Of a stretch of 23,341 bases of DNA, positions 12,135-23,341 are shown piece after piece. Made by a program: the position numbers and the translations under genes. The stretch covers positions 1-23,341 of IMG/VR virus record IMGVR_UViG_3300046777_001043; one strand, given 5' to 3'. Under the pieces are notes generated by a model. The model searched no databases. It saw only the letters and a program-made list of their open reading frames with translations, and was not told the DNA's origin. Each line of letters starts with the position of its first letter. Positions within the stretch are counted from its first letter, which is position 1. Origin of the DNA: a virus.

Positions 12135-12171
12135 AAGCGTCGGTCTAGCGCCAGTAAAGCGTCGGTCTAGC
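12135..12171 (+). repeat. Two 15-bp direct repeats at 22-bp spacing
   Basis: AAGCGTCGGTCTAGC occurs at 12135-12149 and again at 12157-12171. The period of 22 bases is two helical turns, so proteins bound at both copies would lie on the same face of DNA. They are upstream of the candidate -10 box of the 12280 gene. This fits a tandem operator or activator site. Confidence 0.65.
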
Positions 12172-12215
12172 TGGTGGGAAAAAATAAAATATTTACTGTA
12201 TTTATTTTATTTTTA

Positions 12216-12279: not shown

Positions 12280-12924
12280 ATGAATGAAATTACATTCAAG
12301 CTTGATGATGTGCAAGTAGCAGTATTTAGCAATATCGGTGATTTGTTTGCAGTCAGTGAAGTAGACGCCGATCAGGCAGTAGAGGATTTTGCAAGGGCTG
12401 TTGAAATCGCTATTGAGATTGACGGCAAAATTGTGAAGCAAGCTGATTACCATTTATGGGTAGCTGGTAGCGAAGTAATGAAGCAAGCTTACGCCAATAA
12501 AAAAGGTGTCCCCTTAGATTCTGACGCCGTTAAAGGTATGTGGAAGCGCTTTACCCGTCGGCTGGAAGAAAATTACGCTTTAACCAAACCAGCCAGCCCA
12601 TCGACCGAAGGGCAAAAGAAAGCCAGCCAGCGCACTAAAGCCCAGCAAGTAATGGATGAATTGAAAGCCAAACCAATTTCAGAATTGCAAGACGAAATCG
12701 CTATGCTTACAGCTAAAGCTACTCCTGAAAACCTAAAGCAAGCAACCAAGCTGGCTAAAGCTATCAAGCAAAAAAATCAGGATATGCTCAAAGATCGCAT
12801 GGCTGAGATTAAAGATTTACAAAAGCAAGTAATCGAAGCTACTAAGAATTGCTTAGACGAAAGCTTGCTTGATGAAGCTTTAAGCTTGCTTGAGCAGTAT
12901 CAACCGGAAGATTCAGTAATCTAA
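12280..12924 (+). CDS. Hypothetical protein, probable distant paralogue of the 13850 gene
   Basis: This 214-residue protein starts after a CGGAGATT ribosome site. Its first 100 residues look globular, ending in DAVKGMWKRFTRRLEENYAL. A basic linker (GQKKASQRTKAQQVMDELKA) leads to a charged helical half (KATPENLKQATKLAKAIKQK onward) and an acidic leucine-rich end (LLDEALSLLEQYQPEDS). The 13850-14437 protein has the same plan: a D-A-[VI]-x(2-3)-[MK]-W-K-R block, a QRxKA start of the second half, and a helical tail. No function is recognised. As the first gene rightward from the divergent region it may be expressed early. Confidence 0.75.
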   Translation: MNEITFKLDDVQVAVFSNIGDLFAVSEVDADQAVEDFARAVEIAIEIDGKIVKQADYHLWVAGSEVMKQAYANKKGVPLDSDAVKGMWKRFTRRLEENYALTKPASPSTEGQKKASQRTKAQQVMDELKAKPISELQDEIAMLTAKATPENLKQATKLAKAIKQKNQDMLKDRMAEIKDLQKQVIEATKNCLDESLLDEALSLLEQYQPEDSVI

Positions 12925-13249: not shown

Positions 13250-13298
13250 ATTTCAAAAAATGAAGGGAACTGGTTGTAAGCGACGCACTAGCCACATG

Positions 13299-13327
13299 GG
13301 ACATTGTGTCATCGTGACACTTTGTCC
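13299..13327 (+). promoter_or_regulatory. 29-bp palindromic element, copy 1
   Basis: GGAC, ATT, GTGTCA, TCG, TGACAC, TTT, GTCC. It is the only copy whose left A/T triplet is not A-rich. A T-rich run (TTTTTGTTTTTG) follows, so in RNA it may also act as a terminator. It is not next to any start codon. Confidence 0.85.
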
Positions 13328-13339
13328 TTTTTGTTTTTG

Positions 13340-13362
13340 TTATGCTCTGGCTCAGAGCATAA
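13340..13362. repeat. Perfect 10-bp inverted repeat
   Basis: TTATGCTCTG and CAGAGCATAA flank a GCT centre. Without a downstream T run it reads better as an operator or mRNA stem than a terminator. It is unrelated in sequence to the 29-bp element. Confidence 0.65.
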
Positions 13363-13401
13363 TCCACTTTGCCCACTCGGTCAACTAGGGGAAACCCTGA
13401 T

Positions 13402-13697
13402 ATTGTTCTTGTAATGTTCTGTGGCATGGAACAATAGAAACGCTTTGTAATCAAGGACTTACACGCAATGTTCCAAATGTTCCAAATGTTCCAAAATTTT
13501 AACTTCGGAAAATTATTTTTGCAGGGGACAAAGACCCCCTACGCATAGTGTTAAAAAGATCCTCGTTCTTATCTTAATCTATATAGAACAATAGAACATT
13601 ATATCTAAACTAACCGCAAACCCAATACCAGCATGGTTTTCTAATGTTCCAACCCAACAGAACATTACGGAACATTACCCCTCGTTTTCAGAACATT
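13402..13697. repeat. AATGTTC / GAACATT repeat array
   Basis: Nine exact copies of the heptamer AATGTTC or its complement GAACATT occur at 13413, 13467, 13476, 13485, 13594, 13643, 13660, 13670 and 13691. Three one-mismatch copies (ATTGTTC/GAACAAT) lie at 13402, 13429 and 13586. Copies at 13467-13493 form three perfect tandem 9-mers AATGTTCCA. Copies at 13643 and 13660 form an inverted pair. Chance expectation in 300 bases is well below one. The layout resembles replication iterons or a cooperative operator array. Confidence 0.8.
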
Positions 13698-13720
13698 ATC
13701 CATGTTGGTAGGACAACTAC

Positions 13721-13749
13721 TTGACAAATCCCACCACCTATGTTAAACT
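13721..13749 (+). promoter_or_regulatory. Sigma70-type promoter for the 13850 gene, with flanking inverted repeat
   Basis: TTGACA (13721-13726) and TAAACT (13744-13749) are 17 bases apart. CCCAC and GTGGG flank the -10 box (13730-13734 and 13756-13760). The 18 bases ending in the -35 box (13708-13725) match those of the promoter at 14640 in 16 positions, so the two promoters are copies of one module. Confidence 0.75.
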
Positions 13750-13785
13750 GTATTTGTGGGTCAGAAATGTTTTTTGGCTCATGCG

Positions 13786-13814
13786 GGACAAAGTGGCGGA
13801 GTGACACTATGTCC
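13786..13814 (+). promoter_or_regulatory. 29-bp palindromic element, copy 2 (degenerate left core)
   Basis: GGAC, AAA, GTGGCG, GAG, TGACAC, TAT, GTCC. The left core is GTGGCG instead of GTGTCA, making this the most diverged copy. It lies in the leader of the 13850 gene, about 30 bases after the expected transcription start. Confidence 0.75.
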
Positions 13815-13849
13815 CAACCCTAAACCCTCACTCTATGGAGATTGTAAAA

Positions 13850-14437
13850 ATGGATAATTCCAAAACTGTTGTAAAAACCGCCGAGATGTTATCTCAATTC
13901 GACGAGCATGAAAATGCTCAGTTGGTGTCCGCAACCCTTGCCATGGACGAAGGCGAGGACGCCATTGCCGAGGCTATATCAACCATTGCCGTAGTGCTAG
14001 GCACAAAGCCGTCATGGGCTAGGTATTCCATGGGACGCATTGTTTTTTGGGAAACCCTTTCAAATGCGGGTAAGTCCGAGGACGCTATCAGATCCAAATG
14101 GAAACGGGTTTGTAAGGACTCGGCTATTACTATCCCTGAGTCTGATGACCCTGACGCTAAACGCAAAGCAGAGCAAAGGGCAAAGGCGAGAGCGGTTTTC
14201 GCTGAGAAGTCTGACGAGCAACTCAAAGCCGAAATGGCTCAGTTGTTGGCAAACCCTACCATTGCCAAATTAGACTCTGCTAAGAAAATTAGCAAGGAAT
14301 TAGAGGCTAGGCAAAAAGCATTGGGCAAGGACGCAAAGGCGGAATTACTCGCATTGCGTAAAGAGGTGAAGTCCGAGATCGACAAAATTGATGACATGGA
14401 CTTACTTGCCGATTTATTGGCTCAGTTGCAATCGTAG
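13850..14437 (+). CDS. Hypothetical protein, probable distant paralogue of the 12280 gene
   Basis: The start is set at MDNSKTVVKTAEMLSQFDEH (195 residues), because GGAGATTGTAAAA precedes it exactly as GGAGATTCAAAA precedes the 12280 gene. An ATG five codons earlier lacks a ribosome site. The N-terminal half ends in DAIRSKWKRVCKD. A basic linker with AEQRAKARAVFAEKSDEQLK follows, then a charged helical tail (AKKISKELEARQKALGKDAK) and an acidic leucine-rich end. Its plan matches the 12280 protein. The gene has its own promoter, with palindromic elements before and after it. Function is unknown; DNA binding is possible but not shown. Confidence 0.75.
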   Translation: MDNSKTVVKTAEMLSQFDEHENAQLVSATLAMDEGEDAIAEAISTIAVVLGTKPSWARYSMGRIVFWETLSNAGKSEDAIRSKWKRVCKDSAITIPESDDPDAKRKAEQRAKARAVFAEKSDEQLKAEMAQLLANPTIAKLDSAKKISKELEARQKALGKDAKAELLALRKEVKSEIDKIDDMDLLADLLAQLQS

Positions 14438-14447
14438 TATCTGCTAG

Positions 14448-14476
14448 GGACAAAGTGTCATTTTGACACTTTGTCT
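14448..14476 (+). terminator. 29-bp palindromic element, copy 3, terminator-like
   Basis: GGAC, AAA, GTGTCA, TTT, TGACAC, TTT, GTCT. Both arms pair perfectly over 12 bases and TTTTTATTTTT follows, so this copy should work as a rho-independent terminator for the 13850 gene, whose stop lies ten bases upstream. It still keeps the conserved blocks of the family. Confidence 0.8.
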
Positions 14477-14709
14477 TTTTATTTTTGCTTTGCAAAAACC
14501 ACCAGTTCCCCCTCTAGCGACACGCCAACCCCAAAATTTTTTAAGCGACGCAACAGAATCAAAATAAATTCAGCAAGTCCGCCATCGGTAATACCTGCCC
14601 GCCGTGTGCAAATGGCGGTCTTCAAAGTAGGACATCTCCTTGACTTTTCCCACTAGGTGTGGTATACTAATAGAGTGGGAATTCGCCCATTTTTTGCATA
14701 TTTTTAACA
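14477..14709 (+). other. Non-coding leader region with the second promoter module
   Basis: No gene is visible. The stretch contains a CCGCCAT / ATGGCGG inverted repeat (14579-14585 and 14612-14618) and the promoter at 14640-14668. An A/T-rich spacer then leads to the next palindromic element. Confidence 0.55.
14640..14668 (+). promoter_or_regulatory. Strong sigma70-type promoter for the rightward early operon
   Basis: TTGACT (14640-14645) and TATACT (14663-14668) are 17 bases apart. TCCCACT and AGTGGGA (14648-14654 and 14674-14680) form a perfect inverted repeat around the -10 box, with the same 27-base start-to-start distance as at 13721. The upstream box GTAGGACATCTCCTTGAC is shared with that promoter. 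It should drive 14755 and the genes beyond. Confidence 0.8.
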
Positions 14710-14738
14710 GGACAAAGTGTCATCATGACACTAAGTCC
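14710..14738 (+). promoter_or_regulatory. 29-bp palindromic element, copy 4
   Basis: GGAC, AAA, GTGTCA, TCA, TGACAC, TAA, GTCC. It lies in the leader of the 14755 gene, 16 bases before the ATG and about 35 bases past the expected transcription start. The ribosome site CGGAG lies between. Confidence 0.85.
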
Positions 14739-14754
14739 CAACAACGGAGATACT

Positions 14755-14913
14755 ATGACAAGTAAAGAACAAGCCCAAGTTGCAGGAACTTTGCAGAAAG
14801 TATTTATGCTCTGCTTGAAATACCCAACGGCTGAGAACCTTGCACTAGCCAAGGAAGTAATGGAAGCAATCAACATTGCAAGTATCCAAACCAAAGAACA
14901 GGCCCAAGTATGA
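14755..14913 (+). CDS. Small hypothetical protein
   Basis: The start is placed at MTSKEQAQVAGTLQKVFMLC (52 residues) behind an ACGGAGATACT ribosome site. An in-frame ATG ten codons earlier falls inside the palindromic element and is unlikely. The protein is a mix of short amphipathic helices (KYPTAENLALAKEVMEAINI), and the EQAQV motif occurs at both ends. It is the first gene of a chain joined by ATGA overlaps. Function is unknown. Confidence 0.7.
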   Translation: MTSKEQAQVAGTLQKVFMLCLKYPTAENLALAKEVMEAINIASIQTKEQAQV

Positions 14914-15146
14914 AAGCGACGCACCAATCGCACCGCTACCTATGCACAAATTGCTACGGCAGACAGGTAGACGAGGACAGAGCCGAGCATCTCAAAGCAA
15001 ATGGTTTGCGTATGACTTGCCATTTTTGTGGTGAGGAACTAGCCAAAGAACGCAAGTTCACCATTGCACCGCTAAACAAATCAAACTATGTTTGTATAAC
15101 AGATATAGCGATGCTCAAGCAACTCAACCCCAAGAGGACAACATGA
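14910..15146 (+). CDS. Small zinc-ribbon protein
   Basis: This 78-residue protein starts at an ATGA overlap with the 14755 gene. Two CxxC pairs, CTNC at residues 12-15 and CHFC at 37-40, are spaced as in a zinc ribbon, with basic residues around them (KATHQSHRYLCTNCYGRQ). It ends LKQLNPKRTT and overlaps the next gene as ATGA. Such small zinc ribbons in phages may bind nucleic acids or host proteins such as RNA polymerase, which is only a possibility here. Confidence 0.75.
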   Translation: MKATHQSHRYLCTNCYGRQVDEDRAEHLKANGLRMTCHFCGEELAKERKFTIAPLNKSNYVCITDIAMLKQLNPKRTT

Positions 15147-15406
15147 GTGAACCAAACGAACCAAGATTCGAAGACGACTTTGACTGCGACGAAGAACCAC
15201 AGGAAATAACAATAATGGGCGAAGACGAGATAACCATTTATAGCATTGCAGTAACCAAAGCCCACAACTACGCACAGGAATACAACCCAAGCACAGGCAC
15301 AGTCGAAGACAAGGCTAATTACCACGCTCTCAGGGAAGGCTACATGGCGGGATTCCTTGAGGGCTTTTCCCACCGCTTTACAACCAACGACAAAGTGTCA
15401 GAGTGA
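15143..15406 (+). CDS. Small acidic hypothetical protein, stop codon inside a palindromic element
   Basis: The start is the ATG overlapping the upstream stop (ATGA) with AAGAGGA before it, giving MSEPNEPRFEDDFDCDEEPQ and 87 residues. The first third is very acidic. The rest (NYHALREGYMAGFLEGFSHR) looks helical. The last residues DKVSE and the TGA stop are encoded by the left half and centre of a palindromic element. An upstream in-frame ATG at 15092 would extend it into the 14910 gene in another frame and is not favoured. Function is unknown. Confidence 0.7.
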   Translation: MSEPNEPRFEDDFDCDEEPQEITIMGEDEITIYSIAVTKAHNYAQEYNPSTGTVEDKANYHALREGYMAGFLEGFSHRFTTNDKVSE

Positions 15407-15416
15407 CACTAAGTCC
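15388..15416 (+). promoter_or_regulatory. 29-bp palindromic element, copy 5
   Basis: CGAC, AAA, GTGTCA, GAG, TGACAC, TAA, GTCC. Its first 19 bases are coding sequence of the 15143 gene, and the centre plus right core supplies the stop TGA. The next ATG is 16 bases away with AGGAG between. Confidence 0.85.
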
Positions 15417-15432
15417 CAACATAGGAGAAACC

Positions 15433-15648
15433 ATGACTACTTTTACAACCGAGGATAGGCAAAAAGCCTACGACATTGAGGATCGGGAAGACCGAGAGCG
15501 TATGTTGCGTGACCAAAACCGCATACTCAACGAGGAAATCCAAAACCTCAAAGTCAAACTAGCCCAAGCCAACAGGCGTGCCGACTCGTGGCAAGAAGCC
15601 TACAACAATGCCATGGACACCATGAGCAAGATGAGGGCAAAACCATGA
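15433..15648 (+). CDS. Small coiled-coil hypothetical protein
   Basis: The start is set at MTTFTTEDRQKAYDIEDRED (71 residues) after an AGGAG site. An ATG inside the palindromic element ten codons upstream is rejected for lack of a ribosome site. The protein is strongly charged with a heptad pattern from about residue 22 (RDQNRILNEEIQNLKVKLAQ), so a coiled coil or bZIP-like dimer is expected. It ends in an ATGA overlap with the 15645 microprotein. Function is unknown. Confidence 0.7.
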   Translation: MTTFTTEDRQKAYDIEDREDRERMLRDQNRILNEEIQNLKVKLAQANRRADSWQEAYNNAMDTMSKMRAKP

Positions 15649-15734
15649 AAGGCTATTTACAGGTGGGGATTTTTATGTTGGTTCTTGCCGTATGCGTAGT
15701 GCTTTGGTCGATTAAGGTGGAGTATGGGCTATGA
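15645..15734 (+). CDS. 29-residue single-pass membrane microprotein
   Basis: A 29-codon frame (MKGYLQVGIFMLVLAVCVVL then WSIKVEYGL) exactly fills the gap between two genes. It overlaps both by ATGA. Residues about 5-22 form one hydrophobic transmembrane segment with a basic N-terminus. The double overlap in an otherwise gap-free gene chain is strong evidence that it is translated. Function is unknown; membrane signalling or host-protein inhibition is conceivable. Confidence 0.65.
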   Translation: MKGYLQVGIFMLVLAVCVVLWSIKVEYGL

Positions 15735-15919
15735 CCGCTGAGTATTACAAAGGGCAACGCATTAGCGAACTTCTTAGCAAAATCAACGAGTTGCAAGTTG
15801 TGCTTGAACTACATAAAGATAGCATAACCACAGCCGAAGAATTTGCAGAGTATGTGCAAGGGGAAGCGACGCTTGCGATTATGAAAGCAAAACTAACCGC
15901 ATTACAGGCAGACAAATGA
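15731..15919 (+). CDS. Small helical hypothetical protein
   Basis: This 62-residue protein (MTAEYYKGQRISELLSKINE, then AEYVQGEATLAIMKAKLTAL) is predicted to be mostly helical with leucine heptads. It starts by ATGA overlap with the membrane microprotein and ends by ATGA overlap with the 15916 gene. It has no recognisable family. Its place in the coupled chain supports expression as part of one mRNA from the 14640 promoter. Confidence 0.65.
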   Translation: MTAEYYKGQRISELLSKINELQVVLELHKDSITTAEEFAEYVQGEATLAIMKAKLTALQADK

Positions 15920-16116
15920 CCAACGGCGATAAGTTAGACCAAATGATATCCAATGCTAAAGCAATGGTTGTTGCATTGGGATTGACTCGTGCTCGTGGTG
16001 TGACTAGAAACCATGCCAACTTGATTATTTTCAATGTTATTCACAGGCTTGATGAAATGACTAACCAACTGAAGGAGATGAAGAATGAAACCGAAAAAAG
16101 CAAAGATGTTTGTTGA
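15916..16116 (+). CDS. Small hypothetical protein
   Basis: This 66-residue protein (MTNGDKLDQMISNAKAMVVA, GLTRARGVTRNHANLIIFNV) starts by ATGA overlap. A basic RARGVTRNH segment sits between two helices, and the end (EMTNQLKEMKNETEKSKDVC) is charged. Its last 32 bases overlap the next gene in another frame, and they include that gene's ribosome site AAGGAGATGAAGA. Function is unknown. Confidence 0.65.
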   Translation: MTNGDKLDQMISNAKAMVVALGLTRARGVTRNHANLIIFNVIHRLDEMTNQLKEMKNETEKSKDVC

Positions 16117-16351
16117 AGGTTTGGATATGCGAACCTATCGTGGTGTTGAAGACCCACACCATGTGGTGGGTAGAACCTTTCGTAGCACCAGCGAAGCGTT
16201 CAAAGACGCAACCTATGCGTGTGCAATAGAAAGGCACAAGTCCGACTACCGGCAAGCACTTGAGTGGTTCTCAGAGTTGTTTATGTTTTTCTTTTGGGCG
16301 GGTGCTGCCATAGCCCTCCCAGTGTTGTTTGTTTTATGGCTATTTAGATAG
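16085..16351 (+). CDS. Small protein with C-terminal membrane anchor
   Basis: This 88-residue protein has a basic start (MKPKKAKMFVEGLDMRTYRG), a His-containing soluble part (VEDPHHVVGRTFRSTSEAFK) and a C-terminal hydrophobic segment at about residues 66-86 (FMFFFWAGAAIALPVLFVLW). The layout is that of a tail-anchored membrane protein. The ribosome site lies inside the upstream gene. The stop TAG shares its final G with the first base of a palindromic element. Function is unknown. Confidence 0.7.
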   Translation: MKPKKAKMFVEGLDMRTYRGVEDPHHVVGRTFRSTSEAFKDATYACAIERHKSDYRQALEWFSELFMFFFWAGAAIALPVLFVLWLFR

Positions 16352-16379
16352 GACAAAGTGTCATGGTGACACAAAGTCC
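16351..16379 (+). promoter_or_regulatory. 29-bp palindromic element, copy 6
   Basis: GGAC, AAA, GTGTCA, TGG, TGACAC, AAA, GTCC. Left and right A/T triplets are both AAA, so they cannot pair in RNA. This argues for recognition as DNA. Its first G is the last base of the preceding TAG stop. The next ATG is 25 bases away. Confidence 0.9.
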
Positions 16380-16404
16380 CTCAACCTTAACTAAAGGAGT
16401 TGTT

Positions 16405-16950
16405 ATGAAACCCGAAGTAAACGCAGTATTAGCAGAAGTAAAAGCCCAAATGAATAGCATGGACAATGCTATTTCAAAGCCACAACCACTATCTACAACG
16501 CCCGACTTCAAGGCTATGTCGATCATGGAAGCAACCAAGTGGTGCGTGGGGAACGGCATCACCTCACCAAGCGAGATTGCCAAAACCACAGGCAAGTCTT
16601 CAAATACAGTCAGCACCGCCTTGTGGAAAATGCGTAATCCAAAGCGGGTCAAGATGTTGGCTCGTCGTGCCAAGAAAATCAAGGATCTCAAGGCAGGGAT
16701 AGTCAAAGAAGGGGTAAAAGCGACAAAGCCGACCAAAGTTAAAAAGCCAAAGATTGTCAATGGCTTATACGACGATGGCATGGAAACCCCATGGAGAGAT
16801 GCACTACAACGGCAAGGTGTATTCCCTGAGTTGCAAATCCCCATTGAAACCAAAACCACCACGATTCACAACGAACTCATGGCAGAGAACCGCAGGCTCA
16901 AGATTCTTGTCGAGCATTACGAATCAATCCTATTCAAGGGAGGTAAATGA
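16405..16950 (+). CDS. Helix-turn-helix DNA-binding protein with C-terminal coiled coil
   Basis: The start is set at MKPEVNAVLAEVKAQMNSMD (181 residues) behind AAAGGAGTTGTT. Residues 51-77 (ITSPSEIAKTTGKSSNTVST then ALWKMR) fit a helix-turn-helix in which TVSTALWKM would be the recognition helix. A basic stretch follows (RVKMLARRAKKIKDLKAG and PTKVKKPK). The C-terminus (ELMAENRRLKILVEHYESIL) predicts a coiled-coil dimer. This is a candidate transcription factor of the early region and one of two candidate binders of the palindromic elements, one of which stands directly before the gene. That link is inference. Confidence 0.7.
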   Translation: MKPEVNAVLAEVKAQMNSMDNAISKPQPLSTTPDFKAMSIMEATKWCVGNGITSPSEIAKTTGKSSNTVSTALWKMRNPKRVKMLARRAKKIKDLKAGIVKEGVKATKPTKVKKPKIVNGLYDDGMETPWRDALQRQGVFPELQIPIETKTTTIHNELMAENRRLKILVEHYESILFKGGK

Positions 16951-17918
16951 TGCGATTTCATCAGGGCTACAACTCAGCCCGTATCAAACCAATATCAACC
17001 TATGATGAAGCAAAGGAACGATATGAAAAAACCACACCGATCAGGGGGAGTGACAATGTTCGCCCTCTTGGTGATATGCGACGATACAGGTGGATTCAGA
17101 TTAAGCACAAACAGGCTAGTATCGAATCGCCTGATAATCCACTTGGCGAGTTTGTTGATACTTATGTTTGCCATATGTGGGGAACGGACTACATCACCTA
17201 CTACCCCAACGGCGACTTGATAATCAACGCACAACACTATCGTGGTGTATCTGTAATGAATATGCTTACCTATGCTCTAGCAGGTGTAGGTAGGATCGGT
17301 TCAAAGCGGGGTAAGTGGTATTTCGTCAACAAGCAAAACCAAAGTTTTGTTATCAATGACTATGAGCCGACAGTATTTCGTCGTGATGGTGAAACGCTTG
17401 TGCCTGTTGATACTAGAGCCGAGTATGTTTACAGACTTAATCGTAAAGAGATGAATGCTTTGCGTAAGAAATACAAAGCGTTTGTCGACTACGCAACCAC
17501 TGCTCTTGCAATAGATAGCAGAGTTGGCTCTGATACTTCTCATGGTAATGATGGTAGAGAAATAACTGCGGTCAAACAGTATTTCAAAATGAACGATAGT
17601 GAGTTGCTACCAACAAACTATTGGAACAGGCGACCTGATACCAAAGCCAATCGCACTACTGTTATTCAAGCATTGGATAAGTTTGTTGAATCTGGTGATT
17701 TGGAATTAGGCTACAACCTAATGTATCTGATTGCTTTCAATGCGGGTAAGTATTCGTATCGCAACCATTCTATACATTGTTCGCCACAAGCGTTCAAGAA
17801 ATATTTTGAAGAGGTTCTGAAGTATCACTTCAGTGAATCGTTATTCAAAGAAGAAGAAGTAGTAATCGGTATGCCGTTCCACGATGGCAACGAGAAGTAT
17901 ATTAGTAGCAAGGAGTAG
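16950..17918 (+). CDS. Conserved phage hypothetical protein with YxNGDLIINAQHYRG segment
   Basis: This 322-residue protein begins MRFHQGYNSARIKPISTYDE. Of two adjacent ATGs, the second (TGATG junction) lies at a better distance from GGAGG. The N-terminal third contains YEKTTPIRGSDNVRPLGDMR and YITYYPNGDLIINAQHYRGV, a pattern I remember from early genes of many phages and never with an assigned function. The middle has VYRLNRKEMNALRKKYKAFV. The C-terminal part is mixed and acidic at the end. The stop TAG again shares its G with a palindromic element. Confidence 0.75.
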   Translation: MRFHQGYNSARIKPISTYDEAKERYEKTTPIRGSDNVRPLGDMRRYRWIQIKHKQASIESPDNPLGEFVDTYVCHMWGTDYITYYPNGDLIINAQHYRGVSVMNMLTYALAGVGRIGSKRGKWYFVNKQNQSFVINDYEPTVFRRDGETLVPVDTRAEYVYRLNRKEMNALRKKYKAFVDYATTALAIDSRVGSDTSHGNDGREITAVKQYFKMNDSELLPTNYWNRRPDTKANRTTVIQALDKFVESGDLELGYNLMYLIAFNAGKYSYRNHSIHCSPQAFKKYFEEVLKYHFSESLFKEEEVVIGMPFHDGNEKYISSKE

Positions 17919-17946
17919 GACAAAGTGTCATGGTGACACAATGTCT
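17918..17946 (+). promoter_or_regulatory. 29-bp palindromic element, copy 7
   Basis: GGAC, AAA, GTGTCA, TGG, TGACAC, AAT, GTCT. Its first base is the last base of the preceding TAG stop. It stands 31 bases before the AAA+ ATPase start, with AAGGA between. Confidence 0.85.
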
Positions 17947-17977
17947 TTGATTAAATATAACCTTAAGGAAATTAAAA

Positions 17978-19072
17978 ATGGCTGAAGTATTACTTAGTAA
18001 ATCCGCAACCCTCAAAGAAGCAGAGGATATGATTATTGCATTGGGCGGTGAGGGGACTATTCACTTGATGGGTGAGATGGGTGTGGGCAAGACCTCGATG
18101 TTCAAAAACATTGTGGCACGCACAGGCTATCGTGGTGTGTATATCGACGCACCAAACATTGAGTTGGGCGAGTTGGGTGTGCCAATCCCTGACCATTCAA
18201 CCAAGACCACTCGCATTTATCCTAATGAGATGTGGGGATTCCACTTGAACGAGCCACTCGTTGTCTTCATCGACGAGATCACCAAAGCACCATTGGGTGT
18301 GCAGAATATGTTGCATCCAATGCTCAACCACCCTCGCATGGTTATGGGTATCCCATTGCACAAGCAAACGATAGTCGTAACGGCAGGTAATTACACCACC
18401 GATGGTGTCAACGATGTAATGCGTAACCATACACGCAATCGTGTGAGTGTCGTGCATATCAAGAAACCATCTGCGGGCTTCAATGCCGATGGATCTATTG
18501 AACCAAACTCATGGGGTGAGTGGGCAGTCAAAAGCGATATTGTTCCTGAAGTTCTAGCATGGGTTAAGCAGAACCCCCAAGTTCTAGCGTCATACCTCGA
18601 TCCATCACAGGCGGGCAACAAGCATATCTTTCAACCCAAAGAAACGCAGAAGTCTTTTGTTAGCCCTCGTTCCCTTGAGAGAGCATCAAATATTCTTAAG
18701 GTCCGCAGCTCATCGACTACTAATGCAATCTTGTGTGCATTGGAAGGCACTATCGGTGCATACTCTGCTCGTGAGTTGATGGCATTCGTTGATGTGGCAG
18801 ATTCGTTGCCATCGTGGGAAGACATTATCAAGAATCCCAAGACTGCTCAAGTGCCAACGAGTCCTTCAGCATTGTGTTTACTAGCGTTCTCGGCAGTTCA
18901 GCGTGTCGATAGAGAAACAATTAATAAGTTCTTTGAGTATCTAAAGCGGACTCCGAAGGAGTTGCAGTCAGTATTTTGCTTGACAGGTATGAAGAACGAC
19001 GACAAGAAAAAGACTTTCTTAACAAGCCAATCGTTCTGTGATTGGATGCGTGAGAATCAATACTTGTTCTAA
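17978..19072 (+). CDS. MoxR/CobS-type AAA+ ATPase
   Basis: This 364-residue ATPase has Walker A GEMGVGKTS (residues 32-40), Walker B VVFIDE (95-100) and a sensor 1 Asn in VTAGN (about 138). MRNHTRNRV (about 147-155) carries candidate arginine-finger residues, and a helical lid domain follows. MoxR-type ATPases form hexamers that remodel protein partners and usually work with a von Willebrand A protein encoded next to them, as in RavA/ViaA or CobS/CobT. Such a partner lies at 19386-20585. The pair therefore probably acts as a chaperone or metal-insertion-like machine on an unknown target. A palindromic element precedes the gene and another follows. Confidence 0.85.
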   Translation: MAEVLLSKSATLKEAEDMIIALGGEGTIHLMGEMGVGKTSMFKNIVARTGYRGVYIDAPNIELGELGVPIPDHSTKTTRIYPNEMWGFHLNEPLVVFIDEITKAPLGVQNMLHPMLNHPRMVMGIPLHKQTIVVTAGNYTTDGVNDVMRNHTRNRVSVVHIKKPSAGFNADGSIEPNSWGEWAVKSDIVPEVLAWVKQNPQVLASYLDPSQAGNKHIFQPKETQKSFVSPRSLERASNILKVRSSSTTNAILCALEGTIGAYSARELMAFVDVADSLPSWEDIIKNPKTAQVPTSPSALCLLAFSAVQRVDRETINKFFEYLKRTPKELQSVFCLTGMKNDDKKKTFLTSQSFCDWMRENQYLF

Positions 19073-19073
19073 A

Positions 19074-19102
19074 CGACAGAGTGTCATCGTGACACTTTGT
19101 CC
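19074..19102 (+). promoter_or_regulatory. 29-bp palindromic element, copy 8
   Basis: CGAC, AGA, GTGTCA, TCG, TGACAC, TTT, GTCC. It begins two bases after the ATPase stop and ends 20 bases before the 19123 ATG. A G interrupts the left A/T triplet. Confidence 0.85.
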
Positions 19103-19122
19103 CACTTAACTAAGGAAAAACT

Positions 19123-19398
19123 ATGCAAGATAATGAATTTGAAAATAAACGAGAGCAGATGGAACAGATATCCGAAGCTCTTGGCTCTTACTTTGAAAAA
19201 GAAGAAATGGAAGTAGGCATGGTCATGTCTGTGTTGTTCACCATGCTTATCAACACCATGCTAGGGCACGCTAATGTGCCACCGCAAGAAGCTATCCGAC
19301 TCTTTACTAACGCAGTATGTGACTATGTAGATAGAGAAGGGGAAGAAGTTGATGTTGAAGTTAAACCTAACGAGGAGAAAATGCAATGGCTCAACTAA
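19123..19398 (+). CDS. Small acidic protein between the AAA+ and VWA genes
   Basis: This 91-residue protein starts after AAGGA. It begins charged (MQDNEFENKREQMEQISEAL), has a helical centre (MVMSVLFTMLINTMLGHANV, PPQEAIRLFTNAVCDYV) and a very acidic end (REGEEVDVEVKPNEEK). The last 13 bases overlap the VWA gene, so the two are translationally coupled. Position inside the ATPase/VWA pair suggests an adaptor or regulatory subunit, but no family is recognised. Confidence 0.7.
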   Translation: MQDNEFENKREQMEQISEALGSYFEKEEMEVGMVMSVLFTMLINTMLGHANVPPQEAIRLFTNAVCDYVDREGEEVDVEVKPNEEKMQWLN

Positions 19399-20585
19399 CG
19401 GCAGAGCAACGGATTGAACGAATCCATGTGCAACTGATGAAACATCCAAACTTTTGTTTGTTCTCAGGCTTGTTCATGATTGGTAAGGTCGAAGTCAAAG
19501 ACAAGACTTCTAGTGGCACGGCTCAAACTAATGGTGTTGATGTGGTGTATGACCGAGCATTTGTCGACAACCTGAACGACAAGCAACTAGCGTTCTTGAT
19601 CTTGCACGAGAATATGCACAAGGCTTATCGTCACCTAGTAGTGTGGCAATCGTTGCGTAAGAAGAACGCCAAACTTGCGAACATGGCTTGCGACTATGTC
19701 ATTAACTTGCAGATCAGGGACTATGACCCCAACAATGAGATGACTGATTTCCCTACCGACGCACAAGGCAATGTGCTAGGACTTATTGACGAACGCTTTC
19801 GTGGCATGGACTCAGCACAGGTGTTCAAAATACTTGAGGAAGACCAGCAAGGTGGTGGCGGTCAAGGCGAAGGCAAAGACTCACTTGATGGGCATGAGTG
19901 GGACGAGGCTCAAGATATGTCAGATCAGTCCAAGGAAGAAGTAGCCAAAGAGATAGAGCAAGCATTGCGTCAGGGTTCTATGCTCGTGGGTAAGATGGGC
20001 GGTAATGTATCTCGTGAGATAGGCGATATGCTCGTGCCTAAGATAGATTGGCGAGAAGCATTGCGTGACTTTGTTAAGACTGCCATGCAAGGCAAGGACA
20101 AGACCACATGGAAACGATTGCATAAGCGATACATTGCATCGGACTTAATCATGCCATCGTCTTACTCAGAACAAGTGGGTGGTATTGCTATCGGTGTCGA
20201 CACATCAGGCTCTATCGGTGGGGAAGAACTTAATCAGTTCTTATCTGAGGTTAAGTCAATATGTGATGAGGTCAGCCCTGAACAGATTGATCTTCTGTAT
20301 TGGGATACCCATGTTGCGTCACGAGAAACATATCAGGGCAATGAGTTATCCAACCTCGTAGAGTCCACAAAGCCTGCGGGTGGTGGTGGGACTCAGCCCG
20401 CTTGTGTGCCTAAGTATATGAAGAAGCACGACATAAGACCTGAGTGCCTAATCATATTGACCGACGGCTACATTCCGTATCAAGACCCAAGCGATTGGTC
20501 TATTGAAGCACCTGTCTTGTGGTGTATCAAAGGCAATAGTAATTTTAATGAATCAGTAGTAGGCAAAATTGTTCATGTTGAATAA
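19386..20585 (+). CDS. HEXXH metallopeptidase-like and von Willebrand A domain protein (DUF2201/CobT-like)
   Basis: This 399-residue protein has two domains. The N-terminal one carries LILHENMHKAYRH with the zinc-type HEXXH at residues 74-78 and NMACDYVIN at about 99-107, as in DUF2201-type putative metallopeptidases. A Gly/Glu/Asp-rich acidic linker covers about 150-195. The VWA domain has the metal-ion site DTSGS (272-276), Thr336 in GGGTQP and Asp360 in LTDG, so all MIDAS positions are present. Such proteins partner MoxR/CobS ATPases. It overlaps the upstream small gene, with GAGGAG as ribosome site. Whether the HEXXH site cleaves peptides is not known. Confidence 0.85.
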   Translation: MAQLTAEQRIERIHVQLMKHPNFCLFSGLFMIGKVEVKDKTSSGTAQTNGVDVVYDRAFVDNLNDKQLAFLILHENMHKAYRHLVVWQSLRKKNAKLANMACDYVINLQIRDYDPNNEMTDFPTDAQGNVLGLIDERFRGMDSAQVFKILEEDQQGGGGQGEGKDSLDGHEWDEAQDMSDQSKEEVAKEIEQALRQGSMLVGKMGGNVSREIGDMLVPKIDWREALRDFVKTAMQGKDKTTWKRLHKRYIASDLIMPSSYSEQVGGIAIGVDTSGSIGGEELNQFLSEVKSICDEVSPEQIDLLYWDTHVASRETYQGNELSNLVESTKPAGGGGTQPACVPKYMKKHDIRPECLIILTDGYIPYQDPSDWSIEAPVLWCIKGNSNFNESVVGKIVHVE

Positions 20586-20594
20586 GGAGAAATC

Positions 20595-20804
20595 ATGACT
20601 ACAAAAATACCGAAAGGTCGTGCCAGTGATGGCAAAGTAAACATCAGTCTTAATCCTGAGACTGTTGCGTTGCTCGCTGAAGTAAAAGATGAGATGGGTA
20701 AAACCTTGGGGTTTAACTTATCCTATTCTCAAGCAATACAGCATCTTGTTAAGTTTTACCAAAGCAGTGATTTTTATAAACAAAGAGACAAAGTGTCAGA
20801 GTGA
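20595..20804 (+). CDS. Ribbon-helix-helix-type putative transcription regulator
   Basis: This 69-residue basic protein is nine bases from the VWA gene and has an AAGGAG site. Residues 14-20 (KVNISLN) fit the DNA-contacting strand, 21-35 the first helix (PETVALLAEVKDEMG) and 43-55 the second helix (SYSQAIQHLVKFY), as in Arc/MetJ/CopG proteins. These bind palindromes as dimers of dimers. The C-terminal residues DKVSE and the stop are encoded by a palindromic element, so autoregulation is an attractive inference. Identification rests on pattern only. Confidence 0.6.
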   Translation: MTTKIPKGRASDGKVNISLNPETVALLAEVKDEMGKTLGFNLSYSQAIQHLVKFYQSSDFYKQRDKVSE

Positions 20805-20814
20805 CACAATGTCC
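20786..20814 (+). promoter_or_regulatory. 29-bp palindromic element, copy 9
   Basis: AGAC, AAA, GTGTCA, GAG, TGACAC, AAT, GTCC. It overlaps the end of the ribbon-helix-helix gene and supplies its TGA stop, as copy 5 does for the 15143 gene. The next ATG is 23 bases away. Confidence 0.85.
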
Positions 20815-20837
20815 CTCAACTAACTAAAGGAATACAA

Positions 20838-21734
20838 ATGAATAACTCAATCAGTATTGCATCATCAGCCGTGCTAGTCGAACTAAGTATCAGCAGTTGG
20901 ACTGCACGCAAGTTGGACAAGAAAGTATCCGCCGAGGTCGACAACGCAAAGAACACCAAGGTATCCACAGTCAATGTGAACAAGAACCTAATGGCAGGCA
21001 CAGGTGTATTGGAGTCAATCCTCAAATACGCATCGGGTGCTAGAACATGGCACTTGGCACAGACTCTACCTTGGTCAGACAACGGCTCACGCTTACTACC
21101 GATGTCTAACTTTGTAGCATACAAGGAACAGTTGGGTGTGCTTGAAACTAACTACATGGCTCTAGTCGATAAGTTTATCGAGTCGTATCCAAACTTGGTT
21201 ATCGCCGCCGCCTTTCAGTTGGGTGATTTGTTTGACAGGGCTGAGTATCCCGAAGTCCATACGCTGAAGAACAGATTCAAGTTCTCGTATAACTTCTTTC
21301 CTGTGCCGACTGCGGGTGACTTCCGCATTGACATTAACGAAGATGCTAAGGCAGAGATACTAGCAAACTGTGACTCAGCATACCAAGAGCGTCTTAACAA
21401 CGCAATGCGTGACGCTTGGGCTAGGTTGCACGACTGCCTTACCCGCATGAGTGACAGACTTCAATACGACGAGGTTGCAAGCGACGACCCCAATACCCAT
21501 GGGACTGTGCTAAAGCCACGCATATTCCGTGACTCACTGATAGACAACGCTACTGAACTTATCAATATGCTGAAGCACTTGAACATAACTCAAGACCCCA
21601 AACTAGAGTTGGCTCGTGCTGAACTAGAAGGTAGTATCAAGGGCTACGATGTATCAGACTTGCGGGAATCATTTACTGCTCGTGAAGCAGTTAAGCAAAA
21701 GGTCGACGCAATATTATCTAAATTTAACTTTTAA
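20838..21734 (+). CDS. Helical protein, possibly DUF3150-like, linked to the AAA+/VWA module
   Basis: This 298-residue protein begins MNNSISIASSAVLVELSISS and continues WTARKLDKKVSAEVDNAKNT, NKNLMAGTGVLESILKYASG and ARTWHLAQTLPWSDNGSRLL. The rest is largely helical (YMALVDKFIESYPNLVIAAA; AWARLHDCLTRMSDRLQYDE). The SSWTARKLDKKVS... opening and the association with a CobS-like ATPase and CobT-like VWA protein recall DUF3150 proteins of phages and plasmids. This is from memory and unverified. A role as third partner of the module is inferred. The ribosome site is AAAGGAATACAA. Confidence 0.7.
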   Translation: MNNSISIASSAVLVELSISSWTARKLDKKVSAEVDNAKNTKVSTVNVNKNLMAGTGVLESILKYASGARTWHLAQTLPWSDNGSRLLPMSNFVAYKEQLGVLETNYMALVDKFIESYPNLVIAAAFQLGDLFDRAEYPEVHTLKNRFKFSYNFFPVPTAGDFRIDINEDAKAEILANCDSAYQERLNNAMRDAWARLHDCLTRMSDRLQYDEVASDDPNTHGTVLKPRIFRDSLIDNATELINMLKHLNITQDPKLELARAELEGSIKGYDVSDLRESFTAREAVKQKVDAILSKFNF

Positions 21735-21742
21735 GGAAATGT

Positions 21743-22651
21743 ATGACAAGCATGGTTAAAATTGACAGATCTCTTCTGCCGACTAAGGACAGGGACATAG
21801 AAGTAAACCTTAGACTAGAAGAGTTCTTGGCACAAGTGCAGTTAATAAAACCACTAATTAGTTTTGTGGCTTGTGACAAGGGGAGTTATATACAAACAAT
21901 CCACGAGAACAATGCCAATAACGACGGCTACGATACCAAGAAAGTTATCATTGGGGTCAAAGCCTTTGAAGATGGTGAGGAAATCGGTGGGTTGTTTGTG
22001 GGAACTCGTCACTACAACGGCAGACATGACACCTACGAAGTAAGTAGTTTTCGTATCAACAAGATGCGAGGGGACGAGAACACTACTTCAACAACTAACA
22101 TAAAAGTTGCCTTACGCAAAATCAAAAAGTTATTCATTGGTAAAGCAGATCAAGAACTAATTGATGAGATTAAGCATAGGGTTAGTAATAAGGTTTCAAA
22201 TTTGCACGGCGAGTGTAGGAACGAAGTCAGGTGGTCTTTTGACGACGACGAAGAAGGTCTTAACTATGCTCTACTAGCACATCTTTCTAGGTGTAAGGGA
22301 GATAGCACGGTGTCTTTGCCAGTGATGCCTAGCACAGTGAAAGACCAAAAGCGACATACTGACGCTTGTGCTGGTTATTACGAAACCAAAGAGTTAGTGG
22401 ATTTGCTAAATGCCGATAAGGGTTATGGTGCAATATTGCGTCCTGATAACGCATACATTGTTTATAACTACGCTACCCAGACGCTTGCTAGGTATAAAGA
22501 CTTTACCGCTATGCCGACAGACTTGCAAACAAAGTTGGGTGTGTTCAAACTTTTGAAATCGGGTGAGGTGTGTCAGTTTGGTGTGATGTTCAAACCTGAA
22601 AGTTATGAGGTTGAGAAGTATCCGAACACTTACTTCTACATCAAAGAATAA
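21743..22651 (+). CDS. Hypothetical protein downstream of the AAA+/VWA module
   Basis: This 302-residue protein begins MTSMVKIDRSLLPTKDRDIE behind AAGGAAATGT; a start three codons later is possible. It is a mixed alpha/beta protein with FVGTRHYNGRHDTYEVSSFR, KVALRKIKKLFIGKADQELI and a C-terminal RPDNAYIVYNYATQTLARYK. No motif is recognised. It is eight bases after the 20838 gene with no palindromic element between, so the two form one translational unit. The candidate structured RNA and terminator follow it. Confidence 0.7.
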   Translation: MTSMVKIDRSLLPTKDRDIEVNLRLEEFLAQVQLIKPLISFVACDKGSYIQTIHENNANNDGYDTKKVIIGVKAFEDGEEIGGLFVGTRHYNGRHDTYEVSSFRINKMRGDENTTSTTNIKVALRKIKKLFIGKADQELIDEIKHRVSNKVSNLHGECRNEVRWSFDDDEEGLNYALLAHLSRCKGDSTVSLPVMPSTVKDQKRHTDACAGYYETKELVDLLNADKGYGAILRPDNAYIVYNYATQTLARYKDFTAMPTDLQTKLGVFKLLKSGEVCQFGVMFKPESYEVEKYPNTYFYIKE

Positions 22652-22671
22652 AATAAGTCTTGTATTTCCGA

Positions 22672-22771
22672 TGGTTGTTCTTGCTAGCCTAGTAGATGTG
22701 ATGCAAGTCAAGGCGTAAGCCAACAATCTCCCAATACCGCAAGTGGGATGCGGAATCTACTTAGCCCACAC
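22672..22771 (+). ncRNA. Candidate structured RNA ahead of a terminator
   Basis: This 100-base gene-free stretch has several complementary segments. TTGTT/AACAA (22675, 22722), CTTGC/GCAAG (22680, 22703), GGC-GTAA-GCC with a GNRA loop (22712-22721) and CTAGTAGAT/ATCTACTTAG with one bulge (22689, 22755) all pair. Two mutually exclusive hairpins, TCCCA/TGGGA (22729, 22744) and CCGCA/TGCGG (22737, 22749), overlap. It ends at a strong terminator. It could be a small RNA or a 3' UTR structure. No known class is recognised and no good promoter is visible in front. Confidence 0.4.
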
Positions 22772-22797
22772 AAGCCACCTTCGGGTGGCTTTTTTAT
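22772..22797 (+). terminator. Rho-independent terminator of the rightward operon
   Basis: AAGCCACC and GGTGGCTT form a perfect 8-bp stem around a TTCG loop, followed by TTTTATT. It would end transcripts of the 20838-21743 genes and of the structured RNA. Confidence 0.95.
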
Positions 22798-22799
22798 TG

Positions 22800-22828
22800 G
22801 GACAAAGTGTCATCGTGACACTATGTCC
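22800..22828 (+). promoter_or_regulatory. 29-bp palindromic element, copy 10
   Basis: GGAC, AAA, GTGTCA, TCG, TGACAC, TAT, GTCC. It lies between the terminator and the promoter of the nuclease gene, so unlike most copies it is upstream of a promoter rather than in a leader. Confidence 0.9.
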
Positions 22829-23225: not shown

Positions 23226-23341
23226 ATATGCCACCAGTTCCCCATCGTCTTCGCCCTAGCCACTTCTTGAAAACTTTTTGCCATGATCAAGTAAAACTTT
23301 TGCTTGAACGCATGGACTCGCACCCCGAAGAGTTTATTGAA
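23222..23341 (+). CDS. Partial protein, truncated at the right edge
   Basis: An ATG overlaps the nuclease stop (ATGA) with GAGGAGG upstream. The frame stays open for 40 codons to the edge: MNMPPVPHRLRPSHFLKTFC then HDQVKLLLERMDSHPEEFIE. The strong ribosome site and overlap support it. The VRR-NUC neighbour would suit a helicase or other DNA-metabolism gene, but the visible part does not show a domain. Confidence 0.65.
   Translation, partial: MNMPPVPHRLRPSHFLKTFCHDQVKLLLERMDSHPEEFIE

Follow-up and report, generated by a model that had tools for sequence, protein, structure and literature searches.

Lineage-specific palindromes in a phage gene block vary in step with P200, a candidate DNA-binding protein

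The window analysed here, the whole of a 23,341-base IMG/VR virus record, carries leftward genes for terminase, portal and capsid proteins and rightward genes for a MoxR-type ATPase, a DUF2201 metallopeptidase/VWA protein, a DUF3150-like protein and a VRR-NUC-like nuclease. A DNA-level search of the window against cultured phages gave no match, and no bacterial genome encoding a relative of the MoxR protein was confirmed. The genes and promoter-like sites needed below, among them two members of a family that we call P200, are:

12280–12924, plus strand: P200 copy 1, 214 amino acids, helical, of an unannotated family
13721–13749, plus strand: sigma-70-like promoter TTGACA-17-TAAACT, a consensus match only
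13850–14437, plus strand: P200 copy 2, 195 amino acids, whose helices 56–72 and 77–90 track the element type
14640–14668, plus strand: sigma-70-like promoter TTGACT-17-TATACT, a consensus match only
17978–19072, plus strand: MoxR-type AAA ATPase, the anchor gene for finding relatives
19386–20585, plus strand: metallopeptidase/VWA-like protein (DUF2201)
20838–21734, plus strand: DUF3150-like protein, below the Pfam cut-off, with another match annotated DUF3150

The long intergenic region that separates the divergent terminase and P200 copy 1 genes contains two direct copies of AAGCGTCGGTCTAGC (12135–12175), and GGGAACTGGTnG occurs three times in the window, at 13265–13276 on the plus strand and at 14499–14510 and 23231–23242 on the minus strand.

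Searching the window with the pattern GGACnnnGTGTCAnnnTGACACnnnGTCC and allowing up to three mismatches, we obtained exactly ten matches, and none in 100 shuffles. These are the ten copies that a first-pass annotation had listed, and the leftward structural half is indeed free of them:

13299–13327, minus strand: element 1, GGACATTGTGTCATCGTGACACTTTGTCC, in opposite orientation with the AAA half on the right
13786–13814, plus strand: element 2, ~37 bp downstream of a -10 and ~20–35 bp upstream of the start of P200 copy 2
14448–14476, plus strand: element 3, downstream of P200 copy 2, with fully paired arms followed by TTTTATTTTTG
14710–14738, plus strand: element 4, ~42 bp downstream of the second -10, at the start of gene 14725/14755
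15388–15416, plus strand: element 5, preceding a start at 15433
16351–16379, plus strand: element 6, preceding gene 16405
17918–17946, plus strand: element 7, preceding the MoxR-type ATPase gene
19074–19102, plus strand: element 8, between the MoxR gene and gene 19123
20786–20814, plus strand: element 9, over the 3' end of gene 20595–20804 and preceding the DUF3150-like gene
22800–22828, plus strand: element 10, following a terminator and lying ~30 bp ahead of a promoter-like site that precedes gene 22920

Nearly all ten copies are intergenic and fall within one ~10-kb block of genes; the copy at 20786 runs over the last codons of gene 20595–20804. As first described, the left triplet is AAA in eight of the ten, and the centre and the right triplet vary freely. 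The accompanying claim that the cores are nearly invariant needs refining for the inner core, where half-site positions 11 (T/G) and 13 (A/G) vary; in the 13786 copy, for example, the left inner half reads GTGGCG.

We gathered relatives by a scan of the collection and by protein-anchored scans. About a dozen contigs carry the same motif at orthologous places, and in whole relative records of 55–67 kb the copies are confined to one ~10-kb block; random positions inside genes, the pattern that the first-pass annotation had named as speaking against its claim, were not seen. Many relatives with a MoxR protein 72–78% identical have no such motif and display a different palindrome in the same place before MoxR (versions include CAC-tac-CTGACA, GGAC-aaa-CTTAG, TAC-ttg-GCGACA, GGAC-aaa-GTTACA and GAAC-aaa-ACCGTG). 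A blind search with a generalised layout recovered 3–11 mutually alike palindromes in 53 of 55 non-redundant related contigs, against none in the 55 reversed contigs and none in 110 Markov-shuffled ones. The common layout consists of an outer 4 bp, three A/T bases, an inner 6 bp, a centre of 3–5 bp and the mirror image; given that the search required an outer AC, the inner six bases are the most changeable part. The motif originally described is real, and it is one among many lineage-specific versions, which could not have been seen from a single sequence. We count 19 type-label classes among 43 contigs, with the sequence uniform inside each genome (a single-linkage grouping merged too many types and was discarded), and between lineages the copies in orthologous slots have all changed in concert. 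Most of the elements (235 of 342) lie mostly outside open reading frames, where 17% would be expected, at a median of 23.5 nt from the next start where one is found, and the sequences between element and start have little in common beyond a Shine-Dalgarno-like stretch. The AAA spacer is on the left only in 69 of 157 copies and on the right only in 28, a biased rather than strict preference. In 25 loci the longer sequence GGGAACTGGTnGnnnGCGACGC is conserved next to the first element; these include lineages of type E, whose palindromes are different.

A palindrome may be read as double-stranded DNA or fold as RNA, and the pattern of substitutions distinguishes the two. Among 89 distinct type-A copies, no variable pair showed pairing above that of shuffles, except one position that rests on a single copy. 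Pair 13/17 is G.T in 10 copies, A.C in 10 and G-C in none, and pair 11/19 is mismatched in 33 (G.A in 19, T.C in 14) and compensated to G-C in two. Identical half-site substitutions turn up in both halves, which is what a double-stranded site would show. In 157 near-symmetric copies the A/T spacers pair below chance and are anti-correlated (z -5.7 and -4.9). Because changes in the arms go uncompensated, we read the element as double-stranded DNA and, on the strength of these pairing tests, reject the RNA hairpin. This is in line with the earlier proposal that DNA contact blocks, not paired RNA, are conserved; covarying arms, named there as the contrary outcome, were looked for and not seen. 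It is therefore very unlikely that the elements act as RNA, that is, as leader hairpins controlling translation, processing or termination, even though their arms are able to pair, most copies lie 10–35 nt ahead of a start codon and copy 14448 resembles a terminator: pairing at variable positions is at or under chance, A.C mismatches are as common as G.U pairs, the spacers avoid pairing, and a plain hairpin would not need a uniform sequence within each genome. Five type-A copies are fully paired, four of them in the 14448 slot with T-rich sequence next. A compensatory arm change together with a T-run, the criteria for an intrinsic terminator, was found only in copy 14448 and its close orthologues, and judging from its sequence this element is probably a combined operator and intrinsic terminator.

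Which protein might read a site that changes from lineage to lineage? We compared pairwise distances between element half-sites with distances between proteins for 15 families, holding MoxR and VWA distances constant, and one family clearly tracks the element. On a common set of contigs P200 reached a partial r of 0.52 (z 6.9), and all other families stayed at or below 0.24 (best z 3.8): TerS 0.24, 14910 0.23, the ribbon-helix-helix (RHH)-like protein 0.20, 16947 0.20, 21743 0.12, TerL 0.10, the nuclease -0.01 and DUF3150 -0.19. The 16947 and 21743 proteins evolve as fast as P200, yet do not exceed 0.20, and the right-hand control genes give values near 0. The signal is strongest at P200 residues 51–90 (r 0.60, z 8.2), which in the predicted structure correspond to the helix pair 56–72 and 77–90; in single-copy genomes these residues give r 0.52, and any 40-residue stretch elsewhere 0.40 or less. 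Many genomes carry two P200 copies, both of which track the element, and the correlation appears separately in each paralogue and in the single-copy genomes. P200 is encoded in every locus that reaches more than ~4.4 kb upstream of MoxR. The element type is largely inherited, and tree-based parsimony fails to tell the genes apart (extra changes: P200 2, MoxR 3, VWA 2, TerL 2); only the distance test singles out P200. The AlphaFold model (pLDDT 90) has helices over residues 19–90 followed by a long helix at 138–179. Neither the full-length model nor the head alone found a structural match at E≤0.001 in PDB or BFVD, and a sequence search of cultured phages with P200 gave none; the protein's putative DNA binding thus draws no support from its fold. 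P200 copy 2 (13850–14437) is the best candidate for the binding protein, though copy 1, or both, may serve.

It is possible, though we consider it doubtful, that a different DNA-binding protein, of the phage or of the host, uses the elements as operators and that P200 merely travels along. An RHH-like protein such as the product of 20595–20804, which the first-pass annotation had put forward as a binder, would suit a multi-block palindrome; it is, however, absent from the element-bearing lineages B, C, D and E and has a partial r of 0.20. The second protein proposed there, that of 16405–16950, looks HTH-like by eye at about residues 40–75 but occurs in only 15 of 84 loci; neither suggestion is supported. 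Outside the window, the replication part of most long relatives (among records L119–L144) encodes a conserved small XRE-type protein of ~80 amino acids. It is a genuine member of the HTH_3 family, but we rejected it as the specificity partner, since its recognition helix (VSRMTxYxWF) is nearly invariant across lineages with different elements and its partial r is 0.00; on the 16 contigs shared with it, the P200 value drops to 0.32. The genes adjacent to P200, TerS and 14910, also correlate somewhat. A host protein would fail to account for one version per phage lineage.

Elements at gene boundaries where relatives differ in gene content might also be recombination or boundary linkers for module exchange, or spreading palindromic repeats with no regulatory role, and the 17-bp repeats of phage Corndog do flank such indels (PMC4351075). 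We regard this as highly improbable, as the elements are confined to one block, their distances to start codons have a narrow spread, and the concerted change of the copies in orthologous slots is matched by a correlated protein.

The placement of the elements bears on how they might act. Elements 13786 and 14710 come 37–42 bp after the two promoter-like sites, and further elements lie inside the following operon with no promoter nearby; promoter-like matches are no more frequent in the window than in shuffles. Both promoter-like sites (13721–13762 and 14640–14682) share TTGACnnnTCCCAC and a GTGGG after the -10. An inverted CCCAC/GTGGG flanks the -10, one such site being kept in L012, L017, L031, L032 and L049, and these sites are perhaps a second operator.

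The sites, their placement, their substitutions of the double-stranded type, their lineage specificity and the correlation with P200 are observed directly. Our preferred reading is that the ten copies are operators of a phage-encoded regulator, most likely P200, which would govern one ~10-kb non-structural block in a stoperator-like manner; we put its probability at about 0.6. For P200 binding, its oligomeric state, the roadblock effect and its timing, and the cause of the unpaired spacers, we infer the following scheme. The helix pair in the helical head of P200 would read the half-sites, and its coiled-coil-like tail could link subunits, placing two or four heads on the GAC-n5-GTC-n5-GAC-n5-GTC array. 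Because the sites lie mostly after promoters and directly before groups of genes, we favour a roadblock over promoter occlusion or activation: bound P200 would act mainly as an obstacle to elongating polymerase, shutting down the block and limiting its own synthesis. The position of element 13786 ahead of P200 copy 2 fits such autoregulation, and element 10, which lies upstream rather than downstream of its promoter-like site, counts against the roadblock order. The A/T spacers may be kept unpaired so that sites within the operon avoid becoming strong hairpins, and the perfectly paired copy at 14448 sits where termination would be acceptable. We propose that the elements change from lineage to lineage because the regulator and all its sites drift together.

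If so, apparently non-temperate phages may hold an immunity-like code, in which a hitherto undescribed class of DNA-binding protein and its roughly ten operators switch specificity together and so divide a single phage family into many mutually blind groups, a notion that we advance only tentatively. In a co-infected cell, the P200 of one phage would then silence only phages of the same group. Across the relatives, at least 19 operator sequences occupying orthologous positions form a natural series, together with their most likely reader protein, and thereby provide a ready data set of a regulator and some ten targets shifting specificity in step, outside temperate phages and known repressor families. 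In addition, a protein found throughout a large phage group but so far unannotated gains a testable function. Annotation pipelines miss this genome-scale regulatory motif because each lineage has its own version.

The nearest published cases are stoperators, extended start-associated sequences (ESAS) and the Corndog repeats, none of which has this layout or breadth; the initial analogy to dispersed stoperators and start-associated sites was apt. Stoperators of Cluster A phages (L5, Bxb1) are many per genome, mostly off promoters, and have a subcluster-specific consensus correlated with repressor distance (PMC6550527). Stoperators also point in the direction of transcription, and the phage repressor bound to them blocks elongation. 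Like them, our elements are multi-copy and lie between genes, mostly away from promoters. Stoperators, however, are 13 bp and asymmetric, whereas the elements here are 29-bp dyads with a conserved four-block layout, a much wider sequence range and an unrelated protein family. Stoperators also belong to temperate phages, and here no match to integrase, resolvase or ParB domains (PF00589, PF00239, PF02195) was found in 11 long, possibly incomplete, records, on which basis we rejected a classical temperate repressor system. In Cluster K, SAS and ESAS are found immediately ahead of start codons within the non-structural half, and each subcluster has its own consensus for the ESAS inverted repeats, whose two halves are unequal (PMC3203893). 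Our elements likewise precede starts in the non-structural half, but their layout differs, the same slots bear many versions, and a candidate protein is at hand; the 13-bp SAS GGGATAGGAGCCC that stands beside the start codon in Cluster K is absent from the element-to-start sequences. The 17-bp palindromes of Cluster O (Corndog) have a 3-bp free centre, many copies and an unknown binder in phages that are not obviously temperate; one sequence serves all members, with 34 copies genome-wide and about a third inside genes (PMC4351075). With these our elements share the multi-copy dyad, the 3-bp free centre and the not obviously temperate phages, and differ from them in keeping to one block and in their lineage versions.

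In its modelled shape, P200 resembles KfrA of plasmid RA3, an autoregulator at repeated sites with a helical head and a long helical tail (PMC7783346). The likeness of globular helical head and long tail suggests a similar way of working, not homology: the KfrA_N domain was not among the matches listed for 33 P200 members (25 of 52 weak ones), and the RA3 operator consists of five 9-bp direct repeats at KfrA's own promoter only. No similar palindromes were found in HTVC027P and DSL-LC04. The cultured Synechococcus phage MinM2 (L114, OQ594354), like the window, combines a MoxR/DUF3150/VWA block with intergenic palindromes ahead of starts: it has ~15 intergenic copies of GGTTCAGnCTGAACC, many 22–23 bp before a start codon, plus some inside genes, and its feature table annotates none of them. 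It differs in that its motif is 15 bp long and present elsewhere in the genome too, and in having no detectable P200; its protein MM2_92, tried as a homologue of P200, showed no homology. Since such palindromes occur in a phage with no detectable P200, this kind of arrangement may extend beyond genomes that encode the protein.
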